From NCBI GenBank assembly GCA_025358305.1, contig JANYJZ010000037.1, forward strand, positions 1 to 64,000: a stretch of 64,000 bases of DNA, given 5' to 3'. This DNA is from Ignavibacteriota bacterium (GTDB lineage: Bacteria; Bacteroidota; Ignavibacteria; UBA10030; SZUA-254). The position numbers and the translations under genes are program-made. Of this stretch, positions 40,340-46,811 are shown piece by piece. Below the pieces are notes generated by a model, which saw only the letters and a program-made list of their open reading frames with translations, was not told the origin of the DNA and did not search any database. How positions within the stretch are numbered: the stretch's first letter is position 1; each line of letters opens with the position of its first letter.

Positions 40340-41476
40340 TTAGCTCCCGCCCCAGGCGATGAGAAGCGTGAACCGCAAGGTTTCGCTCAAGGGGTGATTC
40401 TCCTCGATCGCGGAGAGGTAGCTGAAGTCGAAGCCGTAGACGTCGTAGCGCACGCCCGCGCCGAACGTCATGAACTTCCTGCCGCCGTAATTGGGGTTCT
40501 CGTAGAAGTACCCGAACCGGAGCGCGACGAGCTTCGGCGCGCCGTACCAGTACTCGATGCCGGTGCCGATGGTGACCTTCTTCAGGCCGCCGTCGCCCCA
40601 GGAGGTGAAGATGGCCTTGTAGAAGTTGTCGGGCTGGGGCGAGGTGATGACCGTCCCGTTCGAGTCCGTGATCTGGGGATACCGGCGCACGAGGAGCCGC
40701 GCGAAATCCACGACGATGTTCATGTTGTTGTACTCGCTCTTCACGATATTGGCCGCGATGCCCAAGCGGAGGTTCGTCGGAAGGGGATCCGCCTGCTCCG
40801 CGTCGATGTACGTGAGCTTCGGTCCGAGGTTCGAGAGGTTCAAACCGACGCTGACGCGGTCGCCGATGTCGCCGAGCCCCGTCGGCTTCCAGAGAGTGGC
40901 GAGATCGAAGCTGATGCTGCTTGCGACGCCCTGGCGGTCCTGACCCTGCACGTTGAACGGCGCCAAGGAGCTGTGGATGAAGCGCAAGTTGAGGCCGACG
41001 CCGAAGTCGTTCGTAACCTTCATCGCGTAGCCGAGCGTTGCCGCGAGTTCGTACGCGCGGAACGTGTTGATGACCTCGGGGCCGTCCGGCGTCGTCTCAT
41101 TGAACTCGCCGAGGCTCAGGTAGGTGACGCTCGCTCCGAGGGTCCCGCCCCAGTCGTCGAGATGGTTCCGGTAGGCCAGATAGTCGTAGAAGAGGTCGGA
41201 CTGCTGGAACTGCGGAAGCCAAGCGGAGTGCGTCAGGCTGATCTCCTGCCCGGGAAGGAACGCCAGAGCTGCGGGATTCCAGAAGGACGCGGAGGCATCA
41301 TCCGCGAGAGCCGCCCCGGACTCGCCCATCGCATCTGCGCGGGCGTTCGGCGCGATCAGCAGGAACGGCACGGCTGATTCACCCTGACCGAACAGCGCGT
41401 GGGGCGCAAGAGTCCCCATCACCAGGAGCGCGAAGAGCACCACCAGCGATACTCTCCCTGATTTTGTGAAAGCCAT
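40340..41476 (-). CDS. porV: PorV (LptO), T9SS outer-membrane barrel
   Basis: The 378-residue product has a signal peptide (VSLVVLFALLVMGTLAPHAL, FGQ) and then the PorV/PorQ signature NARADAMGESGAALADDASA followed by SFWNPAALAFLPG, typical of FadL-like 14-strand barrels. In known T9SS, PorV takes cargo from the SprA pore to the PorU sortase. The ATG at 41476 lies 8 nt after AAGGA; the first ATG at 41482 is too close to it. It is 109 bp downstream of porU, and the pair is probably co-transcribed. A close paralogue-type barrel is encoded at 48548-49819. Confidence 0.92.
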   Translation of the reverse strand: MAFTKSGRVSLVVLFALLVMGTLAPHALFGQGESAVPFLLIAPNARADAMGESGAALADDASASFWNPAALAFLPGQEISLTHSAWLPQFQQSDLFYDYLAYRNHLDDWGGTLGASVTYLSLGEFNETTPDGPEVINTFRAYELAATLGYAMKVTNDFGVGLNLRFIHSSLAPFNVQGQDRQGVASSISFDLATLWKPTGLGDIGDRVSVGLNLSNLGPKLTYIDAEQADPLPTNLRLGIAANIVKSEYNNMNIVVDFARLLVRRYPQITDSNGTVITSPQPDNFYKAIFTSWGDGGLKKVTIGTGIEYWYGAPKLVALRFGYFYENPNYGGRKFMTFGAGVRYDVYGFDFSYLSAIEENHPLSETLRFTLLIAWGGS

Positions 41477-41585
41477 AGTCATATTCCTTTAATGAAATGG
41501 ATGTGTGAAGGTAGCGTAATTTAATTGCGTCAGGGGATTGAAATTTACCACCTTTCGCTGTGAGAAGCAACTCGTTGAGAGCGTA

Positions 41586-44500
41586 TCATCTCAAAATGCT
41601 CAATTTTCCAAGAACTTCGCTCGTATACCGGCCGTCGTGCGTCCGTGCGGTGACCTTGTACAGGTAGACCCCGTTCGCCAGCTCGTCGCCGTCCCGGTCG
41701 CGTCCGTCCCACGGGATCTGGATGCGTTCGTCGGTCGCGTTCGCGGTCGCGAGGGTCTGGATGAGCCGGCCCGCCACGGTGTAGATCCGGACCTCCGCGT
41801 CGATGCCGGAGACCTGGTTCTGCTCGAACGTGAAGAGCGTCGAACGCGAGACCGGGTTCGGGTAGTTCAGGACGTTCGTGAGCCTGAGGCCCGTGTTCGT
41901 GCCGACGTCGAAGACCGTCTCCTCGATCGAGGAGTTGTTGTACGTGTCCCAGGCGCGCATGCGCAGACGGTGCGTCCCCTCGGCGAGGTTCGTCAGGCGG
42001 TATTCCACCGTCCCCTCTCGGTACGTGTCCTTCTTGCTCGTATAGTAGTTCGTAAGATCGATGCTCTCGGGGTTTCCGTCGAGCCAGGCCTCGAGCCGGT
42101 GGCCGATCCCCGCGCCGGAGGTGTTGATGCCGTTCGAGTCGGAGAGTTCCGCGATGAGGAGCGGCGAGCCGCTCACGAGGTCCCCGGGGCGAAAGCCCTT
42201 CGAATCAAGGTAGAGCGCGATGCCGGGCCCCTTGCTGTCCGCGGCGGCGAGGCTGTCGGTCCCGCCGATCCGCACGTTCGCCGAGTAGCCTGCGCCGTCC
42301 TCTTGGGAATTCCAAAAGTACGAGACGATGCGGCCGAGGTTGTTGCCGTACGAGATGTCCTTCGGGACGACGAACGACGCGGAGATCGCGCCGCCGGTGA
42401 CGCTCTGGTCCCCGCGAAACAAGATGTTGCCGTCGACGGGGTAGCTGAAGGTGCCCCAGCGCGGGTCGACGATCTGCGCCGTCTGGTTCGCGTCATAGAC
42501 GACGACCTGCGCCTGTCCGTTGAATGGCCGGGCCGGGCCGGCGGCGCTGTCGCGGACCGTCGCATTCACCGTCGCATGGCCGAGCGCCTTGAGCTGCGCC
42601 ACCTGGGTCGAGGGGACGCCGTTGATGCTGTCGACCGTCGCCGAAAGCCTCGGGAACGCCATGACCATGGCGGGATCGCCGAGGAGGAAGTACTTCCGGT
42701 CGTTGTCCGAGGTCCGGGTCTGCTTCGTCTCGTAGAGGATGTCCCCGAGCCGCTGGGTGATGACCGCGCCGGAGCTGTTCACCTGGAACATGTTCGCGAA
42801 GAAGGCCTCGTTGATGAGGAGGTTCTCCCAGGCGAACACGACGCGCGTCGCCGAAAAGACGCCGATCGCCCCCGCGCCGGGCATCGAGAGGAGGAGCTCT
42901 CCACCGCTCTGATCGCTCAGGGCGTCGAAATCGGAGAAATTGCAGGTCGCCGCCACCAGGAGGAAGCTCTTGTTCGTGTTGTGGAGGAACGCGAAATCGG
43001 TCTCCCGGACGAAGACGTTCTCGTGCGCCCAGAGGCGCGGATTGCCGTGCCCGGAGTAATTCAGGATGACGGTCCCCTCGTTTACCTGGTCGTGGATCGC
43101 GAGGTTCACCGCGGGCTTCCGCCGGCCGCCGGCGGCAATGACCGTGGGATACTGGTAGAGATAGATCTTCCGCTGTTCGAAGAGCGGCGGGAGGTGCTTC
43201 GCGACGGTCTCCGCGTGGCTCACGTGCGTGAAACCGTTGTCCTCGCCGGGACCGGCGAGGCCGTCATCGGCGACGAACGTGACCCGGAGCTTCCAGGGAT
43301 CGTTCACCGGGCCGGTCTCGTACGCGATGATCTTATCGACGATCGCGTTCGCCTCAGGAAGGCTCCGCGAGGTCAGGCGTCCGATGCCGAGGTTCACCCG
43401 GTCCGCGGTGTTGAAGATGACGAAATCGTCCTCCGGCGCGTAGGTATCGAGCGGCTGGTATGATTCCGCGGTCTCCCAGGGGGGGACCCAGTTCGGGCCG
43501 CGCGCGATGGCCCGCTTGTAGTCGTAATCGCCGTCCCCGAACAGGAGCGCGTACCTCGGCGGCACGCTCTGGTTGTTGTACCGATAGCGCAGGTAGTTCC
43601 GGATGGCCGACGGGGAGGCGATGCCTCCGCCGAACTCGTTGTAGATCTCCTCGGTCGTCACGACGACCGTTCTGAGGAAATCGCTCCCCGGACGTTCGCG
43701 GTGAGCCTTCAGCCTGAGCGCCGCCGGGAGAAAATCGGGATGCGTGATGATAATGTTCTCGGCTTCGGTCGGGTCGCCGTGGAGATCCTGGTTCGGCACC
43801 GGCGTCAGGGCGCCGGGCGTCTTGAATCCGCCGGGACCCACCATGAACAGGTCGGACGCCGTCCCGGGGACTCCCGGAGTCTGAAACGTGCAGGTGTCGC
43901 CGGAGATCCGCGCGGGAGTCACTTCCACGACGCTGTCAAAGCGCGTCACGTCGAAGATGCGCACCGTCCCTCCGGAAAATCCCCGCACGCTGAATTCCAT
44001 CACGGCCGAAGTGTCCGCGGCGCGGAACCGAAACTGGTCGGCGAGCGCCACGAGGTTCCGGCGGTACGTGATCTCCAGCCAGTCCAGGAACCCCTTCCCC
44101 GTGGCGCTCGGCGTGTTGTAGGCGAAGCGCAGCTGGCTCTGCTGGTCGGGGATGGAGGGCGAGATCGTGCGGTCGAGAATGCCGTTGATGAACTGCGATG
44201 CGAAATAGTCGCCGACTTGGGTCCCCCCGAGGCCGATCGATCCGATGACCGCGCCGTGTTCCGTCACCGTGAACGACGAGCTCGAGTTCGACTGCGAGCC
44301 GAGATGGAACCGGTATCGCACGGGGGCCGCGGGGTCGATGCCAGGGAGCGGTTGGACGAGCGTGATCTGGTCGCCGCCGTTGAACGACTGTCCCTGCCAT
44401 TCGAGGCCGGACGCGAGAATGTTCGTCTTTTCGTCTTCGCGGACCACCCGGTCGATGACCGAGGAGAGGACATACGGAGCGGGGTCGGCGGCCGACGGTA

Positions 44501-45584
44501 CTTGCGTCATCGGCTTGGGGGCGCCAGTGCCGTAGGTGAGCCAGTAGACGTTCGTCTCCGAAAAATGGTTGAGGTAGTGCGCGAACGACTTCGTCGCGGG
44601 CTGATACGCCCAGCCGCGCGGCGTTTTACCGTACATGAGAATGTAATCGCTCGGATCGAGCGCGCCGATCGAGCCGGCGTCGACCACGTCGACCGCGTTC
44701 TGGACGAGGTCGTCGGGGGCGGGGGCGGAAACGTCGAGGGGGGTCTCGGTGCCGCCGTTGCCGTAGATGCTGATCGTATGCGGGTCGACGGACGCTGGCA
44801 CGCCGGCGTCGAGGAGCGCCTGTCCGGTAAGCTTGTAGATCCCTTCTTCGGTGACGTTGAACCGGAACCACTGGCCGGAGGCGAGAACGCTGCTCGCAAG
44901 GACCGCGGACTTCGTGCGAACGGGCCTCGAGCCGCGGGCGCCGGCGTCATTCAGGACGAACCCTTTCGGCATCGCGCCGCCTTTCGGGCGTTCGGCCGGA
45001 CCGAAGCTCACCCGCACGATGATCCTCGTGTACCGCCTGAGGAGTCTCCGGGCGGCATTGTACTGCATCGGCGCGAACTCGAGATCGGCCAGCACCCTCC
45101 CCTGCGTTTCGGCGACGCGCCGGAGCGTGCAGAGGTCCGCGGGAAGAAGATCGTTCCGGCCGTACGCCGCCGCGTCGACCGAGTATCGCTGGACCGGTTC
45201 TCCGTTTTGGTCGACGGCGCTCGGCAGCGGGGCGAGGAGGACGCCGGTGAGTTCCTCGAACTCCGTGGTGACCGTTTCGACGCTGTTGCCGCGGGTGCCG
45301 GCTAGCGCGACCGTCACTGAGCGCACCGGAAGCTCCGGGGCCCCCGATGTGCGGCCGGCGGCGGCGATGCCGCCTTCAAGGTCATAACGCTGGTACGTCG
45401 TTCCATCGACCGTCACGGGGGTCGGAGCCGCATAGTGGGGCGTGAACTCGACGAGCAATCCGCCCGCGTCGGATTGAAGGATGCGGAGATCACCCTCGGC
45501 CGCCAGTGCGGTCTGGAGGAAGAAAAGCGAGAAAAACACGATCGCCGTCCCCGTGGTGAGCCTATGTCCTAACACTTGAATCAA
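41586..45584 (-). CDS. porU: PorU, T9SS sortase (C25 gingipain-family)
   Basis: PorU removes the sorting domain of T9SS cargo and attaches cargo to a surface lipid. The 1332-residue protein has a signal peptide (LTTGTAIVFFSLFFLQTALA), N-terminal beta domains, and a caspase-like C25 domain with ENIIITHPDFLPAA, catalytic His846 in LNYSGHGNPRLWAH and Cys881 in LLVAATCNFSDFD. A C-terminal Ig-like domain (LNYPNPVSRSTLFTFEQ to the last residues) resembles a sorting domain, as in known PorU. I place the start at TTG 45584, with AGGGGAG 5 nt upstream; the ATG at 45629 lies in a terminator loop. Expression requires reading through that terminator. Confidence 0.92.
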   Translation of the reverse strand: MIQVLGHRLTTGTAIVFFSLFFLQTALAAEGDLRILQSDAGGLLVEFTPHYAAPTPVTVDGTTYQRYDLEGGIAAAGRTSGAPELPVRSVTVALAGTRGNSVETVTTEFEELTGVLLAPLPSAVDQNGEPVQRYSVDAAAYGRNDLLPADLCTLRRVAETQGRVLADLEFAPMQYNAARRLLRRYTRIIVRVSFGPAERPKGGAMPKGFVLNDAGARGSRPVRTKSAVLASSVLASGQWFRFNVTEEGIYKLTGQALLDAGVPASVDPHTISIYGNGGTETPLDVSAPAPDDLVQNAVDVVDAGSIGALDPSDYILMYGKTPRGWAYQPATKSFAHYLNHFSETNVYWLTYGTGAPKPMTQVPSAADPAPYVLSSVIDRVVREDEKTNILASGLEWQGQSFNGGDQITLVQPLPGIDPAAPVRYRFHLGSQSNSSSSFTVTEHGAVIGSIGLGGTQVGDYFASQFINGILDRTISPSIPDQQSQLRFAYNTPSATGKGFLDWLEITYRRNLVALADQFRFRAADTSAVMEFSVRGFSGGTVRIFDVTRFDSVVEVTPARISGDTCTFQTPGVPGTASDLFMVGPGGFKTPGALTPVPNQDLHGDPTEAENIIITHPDFLPAALRLKAHRERPGSDFLRTVVVTTEEIYNEFGGGIASPSAIRNYLRYRYNNQSVPPRYALLFGDGDYDYKRAIARGPNWVPPWETAESYQPLDTYAPEDDFVIFNTADRVNLGIGRLTSRSLPEANAIVDKIIAYETGPVNDPWKLRVTFVADDGLAGPGEDNGFTHVSHAETVAKHLPPLFEQRKIYLYQYPTVIAAGGRRKPAVNLAIHDQVNEGTVILNYSGHGNPRLWAHENVFVRETDFAFLHNTNKSFLLVAATCNFSDFDALSDQSGGELLLSMPGAGAIGVFSATRVVFAWENLLINEAFFANMFQVNSSGAVITQRLGDILYETKQTRTSDNDRKYFLLGDPAMVMAFPRLSATVDSINGVPSTQVAQLKALGHATVNATVRDSAAGPARPFNGQAQVVVYDANQTAQIVDPRWGTFSYPVDGNILFRGDQSVTGGAISASFVVPKDISYGNNLGRIVSYFWNSQEDGAGYSANVRIGGTDSLAAADSKGPGIALYLDSKGFRPGDLVSGSPLLIAELSDSNGINTSGAGIGHRLEAWLDGNPESIDLTNYYTSKKDTYREGTVEYRLTNLAEGTHRLRMRAWDTYNNSSIEETVFDVGTNTGLRLTNVLNYPNPVSRSTLFTFEQNQVSGIDAEVRIYTVAGRLIQTLATANATDERIQIPWDGRDRDGDELANGVYLYKVTARTHDGRYTSEVLGKLSILR

Positions 45585-45603
45585 CCGGACTCCCCTATAC
45601 AAT

Positions 45604-45823
45604 GAAAAAACCGAATGTCGGAATTCCATGACATTCGGTCGCGATTGGCTGCCACGATGGGCCCAAGGCGTCTGTCAAAGGTTTTCCTTCTCTTCGATTC
45701 CGCCCCCCGAAAATGCGAAGGAGGCGTCATAAGCGTGAGAAAATCTCACGTAGTCATCTCAGATCAACCTTTAACAACAAGCGCCAGCAGCGTACTCCTT
45801 GGGTTTAACATCGGTACACGTCT
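45604..45823 (-). ncRNA. Candidate structured leader RNA / riboregulator or sRNA upstream of porU
   Basis: Between a consensus promoter and a perfect terminator, the minus-strand transcript has nested complementary segments: 45813-45809 with 45659-45655 (CGATG/CATCG), 45803-45797 with 45668-45662 (CCCAAGG/CCTTGGG), and 45772-45766 with 45683-45677 (AAAGGTT/AACCTTT). Two hairpins sit inside: 45750-45734 (CGTGAGA/TCTCACG, perfect) and 45726-45701. The shape, an interrupted closing stem with a central bubble and inner hairpins, is RNA-like. No open frame of note occupies it. It could be a riboswitch-type attenuator for porU, a 6S-like or other sRNA, or both. I found no motif of a known riboswitch class. 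Confidence 0.6.
45605..45639 (-). terminator. Intrinsic terminator in the porU leader
   Basis: On the minus strand ACCGAATGTC (45639-45630) pairs perfectly with GACATTCGGT (45619-45610) around a 10-nt loop, followed by TTTTTT (45610-45605). The porU SD (45596-45590) begins only about 8 nt later. No promoter fits between this hairpin and the porU start, so porU mRNA must pass through it. Confidence 0.88.
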
Positions 45824-45829
45824 TGAAAT

Positions 45830-45858
45830 AATATAGAAAATGTTTGCCAGATTGTCAA
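45830..45858 (-). promoter_or_regulatory. Sigma-70-type promoter upstream of the porU leader RNA
   Basis: On the minus strand TTGACA (45858-45853), a 17-nt spacer and TATATT (45835-45830): a perfect -35 and a near-perfect -10. The expected transcription start is close to 45823. It is back to back with a plus-strand promoter at 45867-45895. Confidence 0.75.
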
Positions 45859-45866
45859 GATGCGAG

Positions 45867-45895
45867 TTGTATTTGTGGCATTAAATTCGTAAATT
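45867..45895 (+). promoter_or_regulatory. Candidate promoter of the GT5-gmhB operon
   Basis: TTGTAT (45867-45872), a 17-nt spacer and TAAATT (45890-45895) precede the GT5 gene. The predicted start near 45902 excludes the in-frame TTG at 45897 and supports ATG 45936 as the translation start. The boxes are moderate matches. Confidence 0.5.
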
Positions 45896-45935
45896 ATTGA
45901 AGAAACTTCCCGTTTTCTACCTTTTTTGGTCCCTC

Positions 45936-46811
45936 ATGTCAAAGAACATTGGCGTTCTCTATGTAGCCAGCGAGGCGGACCCGTTTATCAAAACGGGGAC
46001 CATCGGAGAACTTGCCGGCAACCTACCGAAGTCGATCAAGTCGCAGGGGCATGACATCCGCGTGATGCTTCCCGGGTACAGTTCCATCAACAGCCGGCGT
46101 TTCCAGATCCACAACCTCCTGAGAATGAAGGACATTGACATTCCGGTGGGCGCGGACGTGGAGCGGGCGTACATCAAGTCGTCCTATCTCAACGGCGACA
46201 GCCAGAAGGTCCTCGTCTATTTCCTGGCGAATGACCGCTACTACAACCGGGAGGGGCTCTACTTCCATCCCGACTCGAAGAAGCATTTCGTCGACAACGA
46301 CGAGCGCTTCATCTTCTTCTGCCGCGGCGTCCTCGAGACCTTGAAGCGTCTTCAGTGGCAGCCGCAGATCATCCACTGCAACGACTGGCAGTGCGGCCTC
46401 ATCCCGGCCTACCTCAAGACGATCTACAAGGATGACCCGTACTTCCGGAATGTGAAGACGGTCTTCACCGTCTACAGTATGGCGTCCTACGCGAGTTTCC
46501 CGAAGTCGACCTTCGCAAAGGCAGGCCTCGCCACGTCGCTCTTCGATACGAACGGATCGGTGAACGGGGCTGCGAACGGCAAGTTCAACTTCCTCAAGGC
46601 CGGCCTCACCTTCGCCGACGTCGTCACGACCTTCGGCAGCAAGGCGGACAAGGGCATCCGACTCTCCCCCCAGGACGGCATGGGGGAGATCATGAACGCC
46701 CGGAAGAACGCGATCGTCTCCATGGGGAACGACGCTCACAACGGCAGCGGACAGACCGTCCTCGCCCAACGGTTCATCGACGTCTATCGCGATCTGGTGA
46801 AGCATCCCTGA
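45936..46811 (+). CDS. Glycogen/starch synthase-like protein, N-terminal GT5 domain only
   Basis: The 291-residue protein matches the N-terminal Rossmann half of GT5 glycogen synthases: VLYVASEADPFIKTGTIGEL at the start, DERFIFFCRGVLETLKRLQW, and PQIIHCNDWQCGLIPAYLKT are recognisable. Full-length enzymes have about 480 residues; the C-terminal donor-binding half is missing and the gene ends cleanly. The ADP-glucose loop KxGGL is changed to KTGTIGEL. It is therefore unlikely to be an ordinary glycogen synthase and may bind a sugar or act with a partner. The stop and the next start share one base (TGATG), coupling it to the gmhB-like gene. Confidence 0.82.
   Translation: MSKNIGVLYVASEADPFIKTGTIGELAGNLPKSIKSQGHDIRVMLPGYSSINSRRFQIHNLLRMKDIDIPVGADVERAYIKSSYLNGDSQKVLVYFLANDRYYNREGLYFHPDSKKHFVDNDERFIFFCRGVLETLKRLQWQPQIIHCNDWQCGLIPAYLKTIYKDDPYFRNVKTVFTVYSMASYASFPKSTFAKAGLATSLFDTNGSVNGAANGKFNFLKAGLTFADVVTTFGSKADKGIRLSPQDGMGEIMNARKNAIVSMGNDAHNGSGQTVLAQRFIDVYRDLVKHP

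Follow-up and report, generated by a model that had tools for sequence, protein, structure and literature searches.

In attenuators of the trp and his type, four strands of the leader RNA can form helices 1:2, 2:3 and 3:4, the terminator lies just before the first gene, and the off state combines 1:2 with 3:4. The leader described here, which lies ahead of porU, the sortase gene of the type IX secretion system (T9SS), in an Ignavibacteriota bacterium, shares this plan, but it apparently lacks a leader peptide and would control a secretion sortase, and its invariant strand is s1, which s3 resembles. The TRAP, PyrR, LicT/SacY RAT and ANTAR leaders offer a further parallel, in that a protein on the leader would decide between terminator and antiterminator, whereas in the porU leader the putative site spans some 35 nt of one strand and contains GGAG, AU[AC]G and GUUAAAGGUU. 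For ANTAR-controlled leaders, the available sections of one account describe mutually exclusive antiterminator and terminator helices (PMC3369936). Closer in phylogeny, the Flavobacterium psychrophilum transcriptome contains structured 5′ cis-regulatory leaders, several without an Rfam match, at pheA, hisG, ftsY and other genes (PMC9723704). Structured 5′ regions in Bacteroidota are thus common ground, but the genes listed in the available portion of that study are others, and porU is placed there under alternative sigma-factor promoters, not RNA leaders (PMC9723704). PorXY-SigP, a two-component system with an ECF sigma factor, also regulates T9SS component genes, with no attenuation in the accessible part of that report (PMC7712824). 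We found no description of a porU leader in the open-access literature searched.

The window, that is, the whole stretch of 64,000 nt of contig JANYJZ010000037.1 that was analysed, carries the following features of the leader and its genes, where P1 is the outer helix around the pairing of s1 with s2.

45858-45830, minus strand: promoter, −35 TTGACA (45858-45853), spacer of 17, −10 TATATT (45835-45830), 11/12 consensus matches
near 45823, minus strand: predicted transcription start
45809-45813 with 45655-45659, minus strand: CGATG with CATCG, an extension of P1 particular to this genome
45797-45803, minus strand: 5′ strand of P1, CCCAAGG
45795-45800, minus strand: AAGGAG, the first conserved 5′ element
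45766-45776, minus strand: s1, UGUUAAAGGUU, the near-invariant putative anti-antiterminator strand
45734-45750, minus strand: variable hairpin inside the loop, CGUGAGA/UCUCACG, not conserved
45701-45726, minus strand: variable hairpin inside the loop, CGCCUCC../GGGGGCG, not conserved
45672-45688, minus strand: s2, AGGAAAACCUUUGACAG, whose core (45673-45683) is predicted to pair with s1 (off), and core plus 5′ flank with s3 (on)
45662-45668, minus strand: 3′ strand of P1, CCUUGGG
45639-45610, minus strand: arms of the intrinsic terminator (s3:s4), ACCGAAUGUC/GACAUUCGGU, with U6 ending at 45605
45618-45633, minus strand: s3, AUGUCAUGGAAUUCCG, the terminator 5′ arm and loop, predicted antiterminator partner of s2
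45590-45595, minus strand: porU Shine-Dalgarno sequence GGGGAG, 9 nt after the T-run
41586-45584, minus strand: porU, T9SS sortase, start TTG at 45584 (NCBIfam NF033707 equivalog, 966.7 bits, cut-off 420)
40340-41482, minus strand: porV, which follows porU on the same strand (NCBIfam NF033710, 273.7 bits, cut-off 250)

The original prediction had described the promoter TTGACA-17-TATATT on the minus strand, a structured leader of about 220 nt with two internal hairpins, and a 10-bp terminator with T6 ahead of porU (45639-45605), and each of these was found where it had been placed. It had also seen no promoter between the terminator and porU, and a consensus scan of 45300-46300 agrees, since the leader promoter is the only one of its four promoter-like sites (0.5 expected) on the minus strand and the gap spans only about 20 nt. 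The layout is thus that of an attenuator with an intrinsic terminator, in which promoter, leader and terminator stand directly before the gene with no promoter between, and the same is seen in relatives. The terminator is missing from the list of a simple terminator scan that allowed loops of 3-8, probably because its 10-nt apical gap exceeds that limit. It is probable that porV is read from the same leader as porU, and a T9SS-dependent M6-like protein is encoded after the two genes in the same direction. On the other side, the leader has a glycogen-synthase-like gene as its neighbour. A plus-strand promoter-like site, TTAACA-16-AATAAT (45805-45832), faces that gene at 45897 and overlaps the start of the leader, so both genes may share a divergent control region.

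The single-sequence fold of the leader RNA is unexceptional (z −1.4), and such stability proves little, because 18/200 shuffled sequences were equally stable. The covariance models of Rfam 15 were run against the window, the locus and 11 loci of relatives, and none of them matched a leader at the gathering score; the best chance matches had E values of 4 and 8. The original prediction had likewise recognised no motif of a known riboswitch class. With regard to T-box, PyrR, TRAP and ANTAR leaders, too, the Rfam scan returned nothing. For 6S RNA, RF00013 found nothing in the window or in the bacterium's own genome and did find matches in control genomes; the 6S-Flavo model, RF01685, matched neither here nor in any control genome. 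As neither the lone fold nor Rfam was informative, we turned to comparison to decide the case.

When 60 relatives were searched at the DNA level, only the promoter and terminator pieces gave matches, but upstream of porU orthologues the same layout was present in 12 genomes from the bacterium's own family and order. Among the named relatives, which are Ignavibacteria MAGs, JACOSX010000074 has the closest PorU, with 54 percent identity. The covariance search that had been proposed as a check proved productive: a first model, built from 9 leaders, matched 28/98 genomes of the order, and a second, built from 27, matched 74/98 and revealed further leaders in four other families of the class (f9, f12, f17 and f20). 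Outside the class, a sample of the phylum gave only three matches, all weak. Twenty-four genomes of the order had no match, and in at least one of them porU is broken at a contig end. The matches fetched from the order all lie directly before porU, except for two before PorV2-type genes (L112, L132) and one at a contig end (L059), and the leader keeps its place ahead of porU while the upstream neighbour gene varies among relatives; this tie to T9SS genes makes a role in cis likely. The promoter spacing is exactly 17 in all 76 relatives in which a promoter was found. A pattern search of the order mostly returned known leaders; it added a new one in G041, where it stands ahead of porU, and a hit in G060 that by eye falls within a coding sequence. 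Other matches in the class are weak (L126, L127, L129, L134), and one in f9 (L122) stops at a contig edge. One of these loci, L129 (1400-2400; G300, f24), contains a rod that has GGAG, UAUAA and UUGUUAAAAG as well as a U-run, resembling the shortest porU leaders, ahead of a 267-aa ORF without a family match in Pfam or NCBIfam.

Four strands recur in these leaders, namely s1 (GUUAAAGGUU), s2 (AACCUUURACA plus a 5′ flank), s3 (the 5′ arm and loop of the terminator) and s4 (its 3′ arm), and they lie within or after P1, whose sequences vary while the helix covaries. Duplex energies were calculated both for strands taken from one genome and for strands swapped between genomes, using 73 distinct leaders from 9 families. 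For P1, s1:s2, s3:s4 and s2:s3 alike, the true combinations beat every permutation, both overall and within families. In the case of s2:s3, the energy was −11.1 against −7.0 for strands swapped between families (0/5000 permutations as good overall and 0/5000 within families), and the 5′ flank of s2, most of which lies beyond the s1-pairing segment, shows complementarity to s3 on its own (−5.8 against −3.6; 0/3000, also within families). The swapped values were likewise inferior for P1 (−16.4 against −9.6), s1:s2 (−13.1 against −11.4) and the terminator s3:s4 (−14.9 against −10.3), each with 0/3000 permutations, whereas a control pairing of the P1 5′ strand with s3 showed no preference (−7.72 against −7.69; 1763/3000 permutations). 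In the window leader (G000), the s2:s3 duplex reaches −12.0 kcal/mol, compared with −7.5 for swapped partners. The compensatory changes that the original prediction had asked for are seen as covariation in P1 and in s1:s2 (AAAGGUU/AACCUUU). Its three nested pairings all exist in the window, but they differ in conservation: AAAGGUU/AACCUUU is found across the group, the outer helix persists with other sequences, and CGATG/CATCG belongs to this genome only.

Column counts were taken from an alignment of 71 rows that had been fitted to s1:s2 and the terminator, not to s2:s3. In it, s1:s2 is paired in 93.2 percent and the terminator in 97.8 percent, and the four pairs of the s2:s3 core are paired in 86.8%, compared with 69.5% in shuffles and 20-45% when the strands are slid. 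Covariation of s2:s3 is 0.50 against 0.24 in shuffles (0/500), and the four core pairs have 19, 19, 1 and 15 double changes; as the 71 rows are related, the shuffles do not amount to probabilities, and the within-family permutations and the comparison with PorV2-type leaders are the safer evidence. In family f6, a base of the s2 core has changed from A to U, which breaks the pair with s1 in many members and is matched by a change in s3. From these comparisons, s2:s3 is an antiterminator helix that would exclude both s1:s2 and the terminator, and it is conserved by covariation except in families f3, f5, f9 and f17, where it is weak or absent, as it also is in some members of f1 and f6 (G007, G009, G046). 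A few leaders, such as G090 (f4) and G217 (f20), have only a rod followed by U's, with no second terminator, so the switch is not identical everywhere and these leaders must work more simply. The core of s2 at 45673-45683 on the minus strand (ACCUUUGACA; CCUUUAACA in many relatives) resembles the rrn boxA antitermination sequence, but this boxA-like strand is the more variable one.

We consider it very probable that the leader is a cis-acting transcription attenuator of porU, and with it porV, that is switched by a factor. In the models, two folds of the leader RNA exclude each other, and one of them is predicted to end transcription ahead of porU. Transcription would start near 45823, and by default P1 and s1:s2 would form first, leaving s3 free, so that the terminator s3:s4 could form and RNA polymerase would stop near 45605 (off). 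A trans-acting factor holding GGAG..AU[AC]G..GUUAAAGGUU would keep s1 from taking s2, which would then pair with s3 and so occupy the terminator's 5′ arm and loop, preventing termination and allowing porU to be transcribed (on). The competing helices P1, s1:s2, s2:s3 and s3:s4, together with the constant association with T9SS genes, emerge from the comparison and support this model, and the attenuator geometry first proposed for the locus is strongly supported by the leader's fixed place ahead of porU, its covarying helices and the antiterminator s2:s3. We infer the remaining elements, namely that off is the default, that a factor acts on the 5′ strand and in which direction the system responds. 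In each of the nine genomes modelled, the energies favoured the off state with P1, s1:s2 and the terminator, the window leader having −74.8 kcal/mol for off against −61.7 for on. Given this large difference, a factor must be assumed for the on state, and we propose that it acts on the 5′ strand.

The most conserved part of the leader is in fact this 5′ strand, GGAG..AU[AC]G..GUUAAAGGUU, which is invariant even where it is unpaired. Although its partner varies, s1 is exactly GUUAAAGGUU in 54/71 rows, and some of its positions remain constant despite mismatches with the partner in up to 17/71. GGA occurs no more than 45 nt before s1 in 75/81 relatives, and GGA together with AU[AC]G, usually at a distance of 5-8 nt, was found in 61/81 leaders, compared with 3.9 in shuffled segments; the window leader keeps GGAG and s1 and has no AU[AC]G. 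Conservation beyond what pairing needs suggests that something binds this strand, probably a trans-acting factor that would switch porU on. A leader peptide is unlikely, as none of the 81 leaders has AUG or GUG 4-12 nt after GGA and reading frames are not conserved by eye. The one case of an AUG after GGAG that we saw is L183 (Ignavibacteria GWC2_36_12), just upstream of porU, where a short ORF by eye ends at the porU start. CsrA was considered as the factor and rejected: PF02599 has no match in the bacterium's own genome and does give matches in control genomes.

A similar 5′ segment, but no rod, is found in 26 porU leaders that belong to other lineages (Melioribacter-like and others) among the named Ignavibacteria, and in most of them it is complementary to the region of the porU start codon, with an average of −21.6 kcal/mol against −14.5 for swapped partners (0/5000 permutations). 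A pattern search of the class with the 5′ motif of these translation-type leaders hit four genomes, including one clear porU leader (L216) and one hit that by eye lies in a coding sequence (L215). Upstream of porU in L168, L171 and L194, three of these leaders, a third design has a hairpin and then a terminator instead of pairing with the start region: CUAUAUAGAUUUCUUUAC pairs with GUAAAGGAAUCUAUAUAG or similar, and a separate terminator is formed by CCGAGUGUUUAU../..AAACAGUCGG-U6. Across the designs, the 5′ segment is apparently held in common and its partner exchanged, and we infer that the rod and start-codon designs are homologous.

A second leader with the same plan as that of porU stands ahead of many PorV2-type T9SS genes in families f6 and f4 (L246-L268, L284, L285, L288-L289, L294). 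Its s1 is typically UUGUUAGAG and its s2 CUCUAACAAU, with a terminator that typically contains GUUAGAG, GUUAGGG or GUUGGAG, and s1, s2 and s3 have changed together when set against the porU leader that the genome also carries. Averaged over 13 genomes, the s2 of porV2 pairs with its own s3 at −12.9 kcal/mol and with the porU s3 of the same genome at −5.4, and the s2 of porU pairs with its own s3 at −14.4 and with that of porV2 at −7.8. The PorV2 gene of the window genome itself (L276) has no leader of this plan.

Other explanations of the locus have to be weighed against these results. The original prediction had allowed for a small RNA of 6S-like shape as the main product, with porU as a read-through target. 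In a fuller form of this alternative, a small RNA in its own right, either 6S-like or acting in trans by base-pairing, would stop at the terminator, porU would be expressed only through leaky read-through and the structure would serve the small RNA. Its own promoter and strong terminator, the long rod-like fold and the conservation of s1 beyond pairing need would all suit such a molecule, but there is no 6S match in the window or the genome, the place ahead of porU is near-invariant despite a changing upstream gene, a second copy stands before another T9SS gene, an antiterminator s2:s3 would be purposeless in a terminated small RNA, and, apart from a few weak matches, no credible member was found away from a T9SS gene, so that we regard this alternative as very improbable. 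Still harder to credit is the idea that a plain terminator shields porU from transcription coming from upstream, with porU read from an undetected promoter. It is true that promoters were sought by consensus scans only, but the sole minus-strand promoter in the scanned region is that at 45858-45830, which faces porU with a spacing conserved in every relative that has one, the T-run and porU are too close together to leave more than about 20 nt, and the covarying competing helices would have no explanation.

Two further readings concern what acts on the 5′ strand; both are sub-readings of the attenuator, and our confidence in them therefore overlaps with that in the attenuator itself. It is possible, if doubtful, that a 30S subunit or ribosome docks at the Shine-Dalgarno-like GGAG and so keeps the 5′ strand from pairing. 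The frequency of GGA, the start-codon-like AU[AC]G that follows it at a short distance and the similar arrangement in leaders of other design are consistent with this, but the lack of any suitably placed AUG or GUG in the 81 leaders, AUA/AUC frames that are not conserved by eye and the missing AU[AC]G in the window leader are not. Somewhat less probable still is a riboswitch in the narrow sense, in which GGAG..AU[AC]G..GUUAAAGG would fold as an aptamer for a small molecule and withdraw s1 from s2. A conserved 5′ strand common to the porU leaders, the PorV2-type leaders and those of other design is what one would expect of it, but it matches no known class, what is conserved is a single strand of variable spacing in which we could see no fold that is itself conserved, and a ligand for a sortase gene is not obvious.

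We thus return to a factor-switched attenuator as the preferred reading. The T9SS is a defining secretion machine of Bacteroidota, and the published T9SS regulation that we found acts, in the available sections of the studies, through sigma factors and promoters (PorXY-SigP, sigma-factor motifs). The comparison names the exact bases to change, so both the mechanism and the regulator are directly testable. The presence of the same 5′ strand at PorV2-type genes and in leaders that would sequester the start codon points to one common regulator, and, if our reading is true, a conserved attenuator of the sortase gene would mean that an RNA decision determines the cell's export capacity.
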